Source: Aliiroseovarius marinus (GTDB lineage: Bacteria; Pseudomonadota; Alphaproteobacteria; Rhodobacterales; Rhodobacteraceae). Taken from it: 64,000 nt of DNA. The position numbers and the translations under genes are program-made. Location of the stretch: the NCBI RefSeq assembly GCF_004360145.1, contig NZ_ML178712.1:62001-126000 (forward strand), given 5' to 3'. The notes under the pieces are model-generated. The model searched no databases. It saw only the letters and a program-made list of their open reading frames with translations, and was not told where the DNA came from. This document shows, one piece after another, positions 3,809-8,584 of this stretch; positions within the stretch are counted from its first letter, which is position 1; every line of letters begins with the position of its first letter.

Positions 3809-3877
3809 CCTGACCTGCGCGCACACTAACACCGGTGGGCCATCACCTGCGCCCGCCCCGACATTTGGAGAGCTTTG

Positions 3878-4912
3878 ATGGCCAAGACCAATCCCGGACG
3901 TTTCTTTGAAGACTACAAGCTGGGCGACGTGATCGACCATGCCGTGCCGCGCACCGTGGCCGAAGGCGAACGCGCGCTGTATCACGCGCTCTATCCCGCC
4001 CGCCACGCGCTCTATTCCTCGGACGAATTCGCAGGTGCCTGCGGATTGGAAGGCTCGCCTATCGACGACCTGATCGCCTTCCATGTGGTGTTCGGCAAGA
4101 CCGTGCCGGATATCTCGCTGAATGCCGTCGCGAACCTTGGCTATGCCGAAGGCCGCTGGCTGAAACCCGTTTATCCCGGCGACACGCTGCGCTCGCAATC
4201 CGAGGTGATCGGACTGAAGCAGAACTCGAACGGGAAGTCGGGCGTTGTGTGGGTTCGCACCCGCGGGTTCAACCAGATGGGCGAGCCGGTGATGGAATAT
4301 GTGCGCTGGGTGATGGTGCGCAAAGGCGATCTGGACGCCCCCGCGCCGGGCACCGTGATCCCCGAACTGAAGGGCGTACTGGACGCGTCCGACCTGTCGA
4401 TCCCCGAAGGTCTGTCCTTCGAGGACTACGACTTCACGCTGGCCGGCGAGCCCCATCGCTGGGGCGATTACGAGGTCGGCGAAAAGATCGACCACGTGGA
4501 CGGCGTGACGGTCGAAGAAGCCGAGCACATGATGGCGACCCGCCTGTGGCAGAACACCGCGAAGGTGCATTTTGACGCCACCTTCCGTCCCGATGGTCAG
4601 CGCCTGATCTATGGCGGCCACGTGATTTCGATGGCACGCGCGCTGTCGTTCAACGGCTTGGCCAACGCGCAGATGATCGTGGGTCTCAATGGTGGCGCAC
4701 ATGCCAACCCCTGTTTCTCGGGCGACACGATCCGTGCATGGTCCGAGGTGCTGGACAAGGCCGACACCGACGCCCCGGGCGTGGGTGCTGTGCGCCTGCG
4801 TCTGGTTGCCGTCAAACACGGCGCGCCCGAATTTGCCCTGAAAGGCGACGACGGCAAATACCTGCCCGAGGTCATGCTGGATCTCGACTATTGGGCGCTT
4901 ATGCCGAAGTAA
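3878..4912 (+). CDS. mch: Mesaconyl-CoA hydratase (MaoC-like double hotdog)
   Basis: A 344-residue enzyme expected to hydrate mesaconyl-C1-CoA to beta-methylmalyl-CoA in the ethylmalonyl-CoA pathway of acetyl-CoA assimilation. Two MaoC-like hotdog halves are visible: the N-terminal half from NPGRFFEDYKLGD, and the C-terminal half with GDYEVGEKIDH, RLWQNTAKVHFDA and YGGHVISMARALSFNGLA. Size and motifs match the Rhodobacter enzyme encoded next to sdh. The ATG at 3878 follows TTTGGAGAGC; an in-frame TTG one codon earlier is ignored. A hairpin follows the stop. Confidence 0.9.
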   Translation: MAKTNPGRFFEDYKLGDVIDHAVPRTVAEGERALYHALYPARHALYSSDEFAGACGLEGSPIDDLIAFHVVFGKTVPDISLNAVANLGYAEGRWLKPVYPGDTLRSQSEVIGLKQNSNGKSGVVWVRTRGFNQMGEPVMEYVRWVMVRKGDLDAPAPGTVIPELKGVLDASDLSIPEGLSFEDYDFTLAGEPHRWGDYEVGEKIDHVDGVTVEEAEHMMATRLWQNTAKVHFDATFRPDGQRLIYGGHVISMARALSFNGLANAQMIVGLNGGAHANPCFSGDTIRAWSEVLDKADTDAPGVGAVRLRLVAVKHGAPEFALKGDDGKYLPEVMLDLDYWALMPK

Positions 4913-5049: not shown

Positions 5050-5080
5050 TGTGATCACATATCCAAAAACTGTGATCACA
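5050..5080. promoter_or_regulatory. Twin TGTGATCACA palindromes upstream of sdhC
   Basis: Two identical perfect 10-bp palindromes, TGTGATCACA, occupy 5050-5059 and 5071-5080. Their centres are 21 bp apart (two helical turns), so two dimers would sit on the same DNA face. They lie about 125-155 bp upstream of the sdhC start, in the 290-bp gap between mch and sdh. The form suggests a GntR-like or CRP/FNR-superfamily operator, but I cannot name the regulator. The rest of the gap, up to the AAGGAGG at 5191-5197, holds no other clear site. Confidence 0.55.
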
Positions 5081-5202
5081 AGCCCCCAAAAACACCCCCG
5101 TTAGCGCAAAATTCCCGACTTTCGGGTCGCTTCTTGCGTGACTCAGTGCCGCAAAAGGCGCTATTCCTGTCGCAAAGTCGAAACAGACAGAAGGAGGCCG
5201 CC

Positions 5203-5586
5203 ATGGCCGACGTGAACAGAGGCAACCGTCCTCTTTCTCCGCATCTGCAAGTATACCGCCCGCAGCTGACCTCCATCACCTCGATCTTCGCCCGGATCAC
5301 CGGGGTCGCCCTGCTGGGCGCTGCGATCTTGGTCGCATGGTGGTTCTTCGCCGCGTCGCTGGGTGCAGGATATTATGATGTTGTGAACGGTCTGATGACC
5401 TCGTTCGTTGGGGACGTGATCATGTTCCTGGCGCTCTGGGCGCTGTGCTACCACGCACTGTCCGGCCTGCGTCACCTGATCTGGGACATCGGCATCGGCC
5501 TTGAGGTCGAAACCGCCGAGAAAATGGGCATCGGCGTCATCGTCGGGTCCGTCGTTCTGGCGATCATCGTCGCCCTGATCGTGTAA
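5203..5586 (+). CDS. sdhC: Succinate dehydrogenase cytochrome b556 subunit
   Basis: A 127-residue membrane anchor of complex II, carrying heme b and part of the ubiquinone site. PHLQVYRPQLTSITSIFARITG (residues 13-34) is the typical N-terminal quinone-site segment. His84 in CYHALSGLRHLIWDIG (82-97) is the expected axial heme ligand. Three transmembrane helices are visible. The ATG at 5203 is set by a strong AAGGAGG 5 bp upstream; an upstream in-frame ATG at 5134 lacks one. It is the first gene of sdhCDAB and is probably controlled through the palindromes at 5050-5080. Confidence 0.96.
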   Translation: MADVNRGNRPLSPHLQVYRPQLTSITSIFARITGVALLGAAILVAWWFFAASLGAGYYDVVNGLMTSFVGDVIMFLALWALCYHALSGLRHLIWDIGIGLEVETAEKMGIGVIVGSVVLAIIVALIV

Positions 5587-5596
5587 GGAGCCCGTT

Positions 5597-5968
5597 ATGC
5601 AATATATGACTGACCGCAAACGCGCCGTGGGCAAAGGCTCTTCGGGTTCGGGTACGGAACATTTCTGGGGACAGGCTATCTCGGCTGTTGGCCTTCTGAT
5701 CCTGATGCCGCTGTTCGCTCTGACATTCGGTTGTGCCCTTGGCCTGCCCTATGAAGAAGCAATCGCTTATTATCAGCGCCCCTTCCCCGCAATTGTCGCC
5801 GCAATGACGCTTGTTGTGTCGATGGTTCACTTCCGTCACGGCATTCAGGTCGTGATCGAGGATTATTCGCGCGGCGTGACCAAGAAAGTCTTGGTCGTTG
5901 CTTGCACCGCAGTGGCCTACACCGTTCTGGCAATTGGCCTTTATGGCCTTGGCCGCATCGCCTTTTAA
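5597..5968 (+). CDS. sdhD: Succinate dehydrogenase membrane anchor subunit
   Basis: A 123-residue second membrane anchor of complex II with three transmembrane helices. MVHFRHGIQVVIEDY (residues 76-90) contains His78 and His81, one of which should be the second heme ligand. The Asp89-Tyr90 pair corresponds to the conserved quinone-site aspartate-tyrosine. The start follows the sdhC stop by 10 bp with AGGAG in between. It is co-transcribed with sdhC, sdhA and sdhB. Confidence 0.94.
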   Translation: MQYMTDRKRAVGKGSSGSGTEHFWGQAISAVGLLILMPLFALTFGCALGLPYEEAIAYYQRPFPAIVAAMTLVVSMVHFRHGIQVVIEDYSRGVTKKVLVVACTAVAYTVLAIGLYGLGRIAF

Positions 5969-5986: not shown

Positions 5987-7792
5987 ATGGCAGCTTACGA
6001 ATACGAAACACACGAATATGACGTGGTCGTGGTCGGCGCCGGTGGCGCTGGTCTGCGGGCCACGCTTGGCATGGCCGAACAGGGCTTGCGCACCGCTTGT
6101 GTGACCAAAGTTTTCCCGACCCGCTCGCACACCGTTGCGGCACAGGGCGGCATCGCCGCGTCCCTGTCCAACATGGGCCCGGACAACTGGCAGTGGCACA
6201 TGTACGACACCGTGAAGGGCTCGGACTGGCTGGGCGACACGGACGCGATGGAATACCTGGCCCGCGAGGCACCCAAAGCGGTGTACGAGCTGGAGCACTA
6301 TGGCGTTCCCTTCTCGCGCACCGAAGAAGGCAAGATCTATCAGCGCCCCTTCGGCGGCCACACCACCGAATTCGGTGAAGGCCCCGCAGTACAGCGTACC
6401 TGTGCCGCCGCTGACCGGACCGGCCACGCGATCCTGCACACGCTTTACGGCCAATCGGTCAAGAACAACGCTGAGTTCTACATCGAGTACTTCGCAGTAG
6501 ACCTGATCATGTCGGAAGACGGTCAGTGTCAGGGTGTTGTCTGCTGGAAGCTGGATGACGGTACGTTCCACGTCTTCAACGCGAAGATGGTTGTGCTGGC
6601 GACGGGCGGCTATGGCCGCGCCTATTTCTCGGCCACCTCGGCCCACACCTGCACCGGCGACGGTGGCGGCATGGTGGCCCGTGCGGGTCTGGCCCTGCAG
6701 GATATGGAATTCGTTCAGTTCCACCCGACCGGCATCTACGGCTCGGGCTGCTTGATCACCGAAGGTGCACGTGGCGAGGGTGGCTATCTGGTCAACTCGG
6801 AAGGCGAGCGTTTCATGGAGCGTTATGCGCCCCAGTATAAAGACCTTGCCCCGCGCGACTATGTATCCCGCTCGATGACGATGGAGATCCGCGAAGGCCG
6901 CGGTGTGGGTGCCGAAGGCGACCACATCTTCCTGCATCTGGATCACCTGCCCGCCGACGCGCTCGCCGAACGCCTGCCCGGCATCTCGGAAAGCGCCAAG
7001 ATCTTTGCCGGTGTTGACGTAACCAAAGAACCGATCCCGGTTCTGCCGACGGTTCACTACAACATGGGCGGCATCCCGACCAACTATTGGGGTGAGGTTC
7101 TGAACCCGACCAAAGACGATCCGACCGCTGTCGTTCCCGGCCTGATGGCCGTGGGTGAAGCAGGTTGTGCGTCGGTCCACGGTGCAAACCGTCTGGGTTC
7201 GAACTCGCTGATCGACCTTGTGGTCTTCGGCCGCGCCGCCGCGATCCGCGCTGGCAAGGTTGTCGATGCCGAGGCACCGAACCCGGTTCTGAACCAAGCT
7301 TCGGTTGACGCGGCATTCGACCGCTTCGACGGTCTGCGCAATGCAAGCGGCGCGATCCCGACCGCCGATCTGCGTCTGGAAATGCAGAAGACGATGCAAG
7401 CTGACGCAGCCGTGTTCCGTACCGCCAAGACCATGAAAGAAGGCGTCGAGAAGATGACCGCCGTGGCCGCCAAGATGGACGACCTGGCCGTGACCGATCG
7501 CTCGCTGATCTGGAACTCGGACCTGATGGAAACGCTGGAACTGGCGAACCTGATGCCGAACGCTCTGGCGACGATCCACGGCGCAGAAGCCCGCGAAGAA
7601 AGCCGCGGCGCCCACGCGCACGAGGACTTCCCGGAACGCGACGACAAGAAGTGGCGCGTCCACACTGTTAGCCGCGTGGATGGCAACAAGGTTGACCTGT
7701 CCTATCGTCCGGTCGTCGTTGATCCGCTGACCACCGAAGCCGAAGGCGGCATCGAACTGAAGAAAATCGCGCCCAAAGCGCGTACGTTCTAA
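5987..7792 (+). CDS. sdhA: Succinate dehydrogenase flavoprotein subunit
   Basis: A 601-residue FAD subunit that oxidises succinate to fumarate at the cytosolic face. The dinucleotide motif VGAGGAG is at residues 16-22. The covalent flavin-attachment His48 lies in [10 protein letters not shown] (47-56). The substrate-site arginine segment GARGEGGYL and the C-terminal [14 protein letters not shown] motif are present. Length is normal for the family. It starts 18 bp after sdhD with CCGGAGAG as ribosome site, and sdhB follows after 12 bp. Confidence 0.98.
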
Positions 7793-7804: not shown

Positions 7805-8584
7805 ATGGTACAATTCAAGCTCCCCAAGAACTCGACCGTTCGCGTCGGTAAGACATGGCCCAAGCCCGAGGGTGCCAGCAATGTCCGCAAGTTCCAGATC
7901 TATCGCTGGAACCCGGATGATGGCGAGAACCCCCGTGTGGACACCTATTTCCTGGACATGGACAAATGTGGTCCGATGGTTCTGGACGCGCTGATCAAGA
8001 TCAAGAACGAGATTGATCCGACCCTGACCTTCCGCCGCTCGTGCCGTGAAGGCATCTGTGGGTCCTGCGCGATGAACATCGACGGGATCAACACGCTGGC
8101 CTGTATTTACGGGATGGACGAGATCAAGGGCGACGTGAAGATCTATCCGCTGCCGCATATGCCGGTGGTGAAAGACCTGATCCCGGACCTGACGCATTTC
8201 TATGCGCAGCACGCGTCGATCATGCCGTGGCTGGAAACCAAGACCAACCGCCCTGCGAAAGAGTGGAAGCAGTCCATTGAGGACCGCAAGAAGCTGGATG
8301 GTCTGTATGAATGCGTCATGTGCGCCAGCTGCTCGACCTCGTGCCCGAGCTATTGGTGGAACGGTGACCGCTATCTTGGGCCGGCCGCGCTGCTGCATGC
8401 GTATCGCTGGATCATCGACTCGCGCGATGAAGCCACAGGCGAGCGTCTGGACCAGCTGGAAGACCCCTTCAAGCTGTATCGCTGCCACACGATCATGAAC
8501 TGCTCGAAGACTTGCCCCAAGGGCCTGAACCCGGCCAAGGCAATCGCGTCGATCAAGAAAATGATGGTCGAGCGCCAGCTTTGA
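7805..8584 (+). CDS. sdhB: Succinate dehydrogenase iron-sulfur subunit
   Basis: A 259-residue electron-transfer subunit of complex II. The 2Fe-2S ligands are Cys80, Cys85, Cys88 ([10 protein letters not shown]) and Cys100. The C-terminal domain has [12 protein letters not shown] and [12 protein letters not shown] for the 4Fe-4S and 3Fe-4S clusters, with one cysteine position supplied by Ser or Thr in the usual way. GGAGG precedes the ATG. It closes the sdhCDAB operon and is followed by a strong terminator. Confidence 0.98.

Follow-up and report, generated by a model that had tools for sequence, protein, structure and literature searches.

The paired palindromes upstream of sdhC are, with high probability, an operator of AkgR, a GntR-family protein that would activate the sdhC and sucC operons and would repress its own gene; as a whole, this explanation is built on sequence comparison. 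The twin site is an element of a known system of TCA-cycle control, not of a new one. We take RSP_0981 of Rhodobacter sphaeroides to be AkgR, which fits two published accounts. Imam, Noguera and Donohue are said to have identified AkgR with RSP_0981 in 2015 and to have described its direct activation of TCA-cycle genes. In a 2015 paper, the GntR protein RSP_0981 is predicted to control succinyl-CoA synthetase, succinate dehydrogenase, and 2-oxoglutarate dehydrogenase (PMC4344238). A 2019 paper, which cites Imam, Noguera and Donohue 2015 (mBio 6:e02461-14), includes GTGATCAC among the sites of AkgR, a transcriptional activator of R. sphaeroides (PMC6365646). Because GTGATCAC has been published as an AkgR site, and RSP_0981 was predicted for the same operons, the regulator of the twin is not an unassigned one, contrary to the original suggestion that it might be.

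Twin palindromes upstream of sdhC

The window (the whole 64,000-nucleotide stretch of DNA that was analyzed) contains two identical, perfect 10-bp palindromes with a center-to-center distance of 21 bp upstream of sdhC, just as they were first described (Table 1). The second palindrome and the ATG of sdhC have 122 bp between them. The sdh genes were named from their NCBIfam matches. When 30 other genomes of the family were searched for SdhA, exactly one match (E ≤ 1e-150) was obtained in 24 and none in the other 6. The gene directly upstream of sdhC (window 3875-4912) has a match above the cutoff to the Pfam family MC_hydratase (mesaconyl-CoA hydratase).

No further exact copy of TGTGATCACA is present in the window. 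With up to one mismatch allowed, five sites were observed where 1.65 were expected, and 3 of 100 shuffled sequences also reached five. Lone sites are therefore close to the chance level in the window, and the pairing is the unusual part. The exact pair occurs at a single place in the 3.13-Mb genome, and a reversed control pattern occurs at none, in agreement with the initial judgment that such a pair is improbable by chance.

Table 1. Features of the sdhC upstream region and the sdh operon (window coordinates)
Feature	Position	Strand	Basis or remark
Palindrome 1, AkgR-type operator (predicted), TGTGATCACA	5050..5059	.	Sequence
Spacer, 11 bp	5060..5070	.	Sequence differs between species
Palindrome 2, AkgR-type operator (predicted), TGTGATCACA	5071..5080	.	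21 bp (~two helical turns) from palindrome 1
Imperfect CceR-like box, TTAGCGCAA	5101..5109	+	With the preceding G, GTT-N6-AAA versus published GTT-N6-8-AAC (PMC4344238)
Putative -35 of sdhC, GTGACT	5138..5143	+	Conserved distance from the pair
Putative -10 of sdhC, TATTCC	5162..5167	+	Weak; inferred
sdhC, cytochrome b556 subunit	5203..5586	+	TIGR02970
sdhD, membrane anchor	5597..5968	+	TIGR02968
sdhA, flavoprotein	5987..7792	+	TIGR01816
sdhB, iron-sulfur subunit	7805..8584	+	NF004616

Conservation of the pair and its target genes

Within the genus, the pair was detected in 21/21 genomes, every one of which has a match at ≤1 mismatch. Across the family, represented by one genome per genus, 149/198 genomes carry a pair at ≤1 mismatch and a spacing of exactly 21 bp. 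The relaxed core GTGATCAC, occurring twice at 18 to 23 bp, was recovered from 26 of the 49 genomes missed by the stricter search, and the two criteria combined give 175/198 genomes. The same relaxed pair, mostly in exactly two copies, is present in 287/292 genomes of the order sample, all of which come from one and the same family. The absence of the twin before sdhC orthologues had been named at the outset as the observation that would count against the site; conservation was found instead. The class sample yielded a match in 8/289 genomes, four of them family members, so that 4/285 genomes matched outside the family. The reversed-pattern control returned nothing in the 198-genome, 49-genome, and order-sample searches, matches in 2/21 genomes at three mismatches in the genus search, and a match in 1/289 genomes of the class sample.

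The spacing among 106 distinct pairs was 21 bp in 84 and 20 bp in 13, a spread biased toward 21 because most loci were fetched by searches asking for about that distance. The spacer sequence varies across species; the palindromes do not. At 63/65 loci, some of which were fetched twice, the pair precedes sdhC, sucC, or sucA. All 30 loci taken from the 198-genome search have it before sdhC or sucC, except L035, where it is located between mdh and sucA. The 35 further loci from the order and class samples, partly repeats, comprise 18 before sdhC, 15 before sucC, and 2 elsewhere, both with 18-bp spacing. With two mismatches allowed per palindrome, a pair was also found at 13/13 loci (12 sucC and 1 sdhC) that have at least 150 bp of upstream sequence in the 76-locus regulator set described below. 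With pairs placed before sdhC and before sucC or sucA, a single regulon brings together 2-oxoglutarate dehydrogenase, succinyl-CoA synthetase, and succinate dehydrogenase. The site thus appears, in line with the original prediction, to be a conserved transcription factor site for a regulator of the TCA cycle.

Other copies of the palindrome in the genome

TGTGATCACA occurs nine times in exact form in the genome: twice before sdhC, twice before sucC, once at the start of a GntR gene, and four times elsewhere; base counting alone (3.13 Mb/4^10) leads one to expect about three. The sucC pair (C1:58826-58855) is upstream of the gene, with its palindromes 20 bp apart, and the single copy at C1:48174-48183 is immediately 5′ of the start codon of the GntR gene. 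Three of the remaining four copies are within coding sequence, two of them inside genes for a response regulator and a CbiJ/CobK protein, respectively. The fourth (C6:38909-38918, locus L107), between the convergent genes zapE and folC, has no obvious target and is probably due to chance. A relaxed-pattern search of the genome returned two extra pairs, one inside mfd (C2:192096) and one at C1:83256 (window 21256) with a spacing of 13. At locus L068 (14900-17806) of this genome, other genes, glycosyltransferase-like by eye, precede sucC; a relative in the genus (L013) has mdh there.

A GntR/FCD protein encoded beside lpd

The GntR gene with a palindrome at its start (C1:48193-48840) encodes a 216-amino-acid protein with GntR and FCD domains. 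The gene is next to lpd, where the suc operon ends, ~18 kb from the twin and outside the window. Among the 15 GntR matches in the genome, one of them below the family cutoff, it is the only one adjoining an exact palindrome, the other 14 having none. Orthologues at E ≤ 1e-70, a cutoff chosen after the table had been viewed, were found in 175/198 family genomes, with identities of 64 to 76% among the matches listed. The original suggestion included GntR among the families to consider, and comparison across genomes favors a GntR protein of the AkgR type that this genome itself encodes.

The pair and the orthologue occur together in 171 of the 198 genomes, 4 have the GntR protein only, 4 the pair only, and 19 neither (Fisher p = 5e-19). 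Half of the eight discordant genomes are under 80% complete and the other four are not; in G060, which counts as GntR only, a degenerate pair was found upstream of sdhC. In all 14 genomes that lack both pair and orthologue and in which sdhC could be placed, there is no site within 300 bp of the gene, even at two mismatches. The placement check left 3/24 loci unplaceable (G175, G041, and G177), and the assumed start is non-ATG in G074 and G079. An SdhA tree, its 32 rows selected with these cases in mind, shows the genomes without pair and orthologue dispersed over several places, with eight changes of the regulator and five of the pair; an independent-pairs test on this tree had only four pairs to draw on, too few to give it power, and gave a median p of 1. 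Five genomes of the order sample have no pair, and they fall into several situations: G121 and G187 have no clear orthologue, and G301 and G399, both of genus g229, have only a relative with 49 to 51% identity, for which a change of operator is possible. G402, with a 73% identical orthologue and no pair, runs against the co-occurrence rule.

These data bear on two other accounts of the twin. A pair arisen by chance, or a palindrome that serves DNA methylation or structure and has no regulator, would accord with the GATC contained in the core, with the near-chance frequency of single TGTGATCACA sites in the window, and with the four of nine genomic copies that are inside coding regions or between two genes that converge. 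We nevertheless consider it extremely improbable, given that the pair persists in 287/292 genomes despite a freely varying spacer, that it has two main gene contexts, and that the 14 placeable genomes without pair and orthologue have no site near sdhC. It is also quite unlikely that a different protein binds the twin, whether an unrelated factor or a paralogous GntR protein such as the ~35% identical one at C3:277507 of G000. Relatives with 33 to 39% identity are present in these genomes, and the assignment of motif to protein is indirect here; however, no exact palindrome was found near any other GntR match of the genome, the own-gene site and the co-occurrence indicate a single orthologue group, and the motif is given to AkgR in the 2019 paper (PMC6365646).

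Returning to the AkgR-type protein as the regulator, we infer that the product of C1:48193-48840 is orthologous to RSP_0981. In Gemmobacter lanyuensis, its orthologue is encoded downstream of sdhCDAB, a neighborhood that is consistent with the RSP_0981 number following those of sdh (RSP_0974-6). The solved structures nearest to the regulator are McbR and a Brucella GntR protein, and its AlphaFold model is of moderate confidence (pLDDT, 75.6). Alignment A1 contains 28 of 30 rows; L081, which does not begin with ATG, and L092, for which a start could not be located, were left out.

Comparison with known regulators

The system resembles the AkgR regulon of R. sphaeroides in having a GntR-family regulator, the motif GTGATCAC, and sdh, sucCD, and the 2-oxoglutarate dehydrogenase genes as predicted targets (PMC4344238, PMC6365646). 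Here, too, the promoter carries a GTGATCAC palindrome, the sites at sdhC and sucC correspond to these targets, and a GntR/FCD protein encoded in the genome co-occurs with the site. The twin in-phase sites, the promoter spacing, and the own-gene site were not found described in the literature searched, which did not extend to the 2015 AkgR paper itself; nor did that literature contain an account of the geometry of pair and promoter at sdhC.

PS417_07240 of Pseudomonas simiae, a GntR-like protein encoded beside deoxyribonate oxidation genes and 32% identical to AkgR, also has GTGATCAC before its own gene, but only one site is described for it, and the pathway and the bacterial class are different (PMC6365646). 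Atu1419, a VanR-type GntR/FCD protein of Agrobacterium that is among the fold matches of the regulator, binds as a dimer to a 10-bp palindrome, and its tetramer can hold two. Its sites are separated by 109 or 190 bp and involve looping, in contrast to the 20 to 21 bp observed here; its palindrome is ATGTATACAT, and it is a repressor (PMC7797058). The twin palindromes equal this VanR/Atu1419-type operator in length and differ from it in their letters. McbR/YncC of Escherichia coli (PDB 4p9f) is the closest solved structure to the regulator by both sequence and fold, but the two are only ~24% identical, and we know of no role for McbR/YncC in the TCA cycle.

Several other kinds of site were compared with the twin. 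CRP-type sites have the form TGTGA-N6-TCACA, whereas the half sites of the twin abut with no spacer. FNR-type sites have the form TTGAT-N4-ATCAA, which TGTGATCACA does not match, and the spacing of the PpsR/CrtJ site, TGT-N12-ACA, was not seen by eye. CceR (RSP_1663) is predicted for sdh and mdh in the 2015 paper, which also names NtrC for sdh (PMC4344238), and has been linked to TCA-cycle enzymes in Paracoccus. An imperfect box of its type follows the twin in this genus, but CceR belongs to the LacI family, and its form, GTT-N6-8-AAC, is not that of the palindromes. For RedB, the available account gives no motif and reports indirect effects on sdhB, sucA, and sucB. The early remark that the twin is unlike FNR, LexA, and CceR sites has held up, neither the FNR form nor the CceR form being present in the palindromes.

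A genome from another family, G600, has three GTGATCAC-like sites in steps of 20 and 21 bp (L242:970-1022), flanked by genes for a TonB receptor and for a GntR/FCD protein that is 33% identical to the regulator studied here. The position of these sites beside a related GntR/FCD gene indicates that the palindrome goes with this GntR branch. Elsewhere in the genus of G600 (L241), a pair was observed ahead of another TonB-receptor gene; this genus thus accounts for two of the four hits outside the family.

Promoter geometry at sdhC and at the regulator gene

A plain consensus promoter scan of the region before sdhC found no promoter. The putative -35 element was recognized by its conserved distance from the pair: GTGAC(A/T) is located 57 bp after the pair in 13/13 distinct sdhC regions of the genus, in which the distance between pair and ATG ranges from 122 to 226 bp. 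In other genera, the element is 56 to 58 bp after the pair in 17/25 sdhC regions and absent from 4/25, and the remaining 4/25 have it at 47 bp (closer by about one helical turn), at 68 and 69 bp (farther by about one turn), and at 79 bp (farther by about two). This pattern of whole-turn steps was spotted post hoc. GTGACA also precedes sdhC in two genomes without the pair (G187 and G068). At sucC, a likely -35 element is found ~45 bp after the pair and is less clear than that of sdhC. Identical upstream regions were merged (from 20 to 17 for sdhC and from 37 to 36 for sucC).

By this reading of the promoter, the sdhC palindromes would be centered near -98 and -119, upstream of and in phase with the putative promoter, a location that is the place of an activator. 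TTAGCG occurs 20 bp after the twin in 12/13 distinct sdhC regions of the genus, but it or CGCTAA was found within 60 bp in only 5/25 sdhC regions of other genera, and TTAGCG is within 45 bp of the pair in 8/36 sucC regions. The CceR-like box is frequent in this genus and rare in the others.

The arrangement at the regulator's own gene was analyzed in two sets of loci, both consisting of the best-scoring relatives of the query. A palindrome precedes the orthologue in 20/30 loci of the first set, at ≤1 mismatch, and in 68/76 of the second (58 of them exact), from which 4 of 80 loci without the anchor motif were omitted. TTGAC starts 17 bp before the palindrome in 54/68 of these loci, so that the second half of the palindrome coincides with the -10 position, a location typical of a repressor. 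A single palindrome over the likely -10 suggests, as judged from sequence, that AkgR probably represses itself. The palindrome is absent before 8/76 orthologues (L174, L195, L206, L215, L227, L231, L236, and L237). Orthologues without it include those of Gemmobacter, Rhodobacter, Cypionkella, and Falsirhodobacter, and Gemmobacter retains the pair at sdhC. In two Leisingera loci (L200 and L219), two palindromes 44 bp apart are found ahead of the regulator gene, with TTGAC between them.

The overlap of the single own-gene site with the likely -10, a classical repressor place, also raises the alternative that an AkgR-type protein binds the twin yet represses sdh and suc, for example, by obstructing another activator, and the FCD-type protein Atu1419 is described as a repressor (PMC7797058). 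We regard this alternative as unlikely, because the sdhC pair is upstream of a conserved promoter element at distances that vary by approximately whole turns, and AkgR is called a transcriptional activator in the 2019 paper (PMC6365646).

Proposed mechanism and implications

In the favored explanation, activation by AkgR, this GntR protein with an FCD ligand domain would bind the twin as its operator. A spacing of 20 to 21 bp places two dimers on one helix face, and they would most likely be side by side, one per palindrome, with cooperativity between them. The assignment of one dimer to each 10-bp palindrome follows an analogy with Atu1419, whose tetramer holds two (PMC7797058). At sdhC and sucC, the AkgR pair would be located some 80 to 125 bp ahead of the transcription start and would switch on the two operons that take 2-oxoglutarate to fumarate, and the lone palindrome over the likely -10 of its own gene would probably mediate self-repression. 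As a guess, the effector of AkgR would be a metabolite from this stretch of the cycle.

It is conceivable, at slightly less than an even chance in our estimation, that the number and place of the palindromes set the sign of AkgR: a phased pair at 20 to 21 bp would hold a dimer of dimers and activate sdh and suc through contact with RNA polymerase, a lone -10 site would give self-repression, and the rule would be kept across most of the family. The fixed face that this requires is defined as 56 to 58 bp to the putative -35, or a shift from it of about one or two turns. If this is true, the rule has outlasted the drift of both spacer and leader.

FCD-type GntR proteins are better known as repressors. 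The operator geometry at sdhC is strict and helix-phased and would therefore offer a clean test of activation by a protein of this class. Across the family sample, predicted control of sdh and suc by the twin is almost ubiquitous, and the site and its regulator tend to vanish together.
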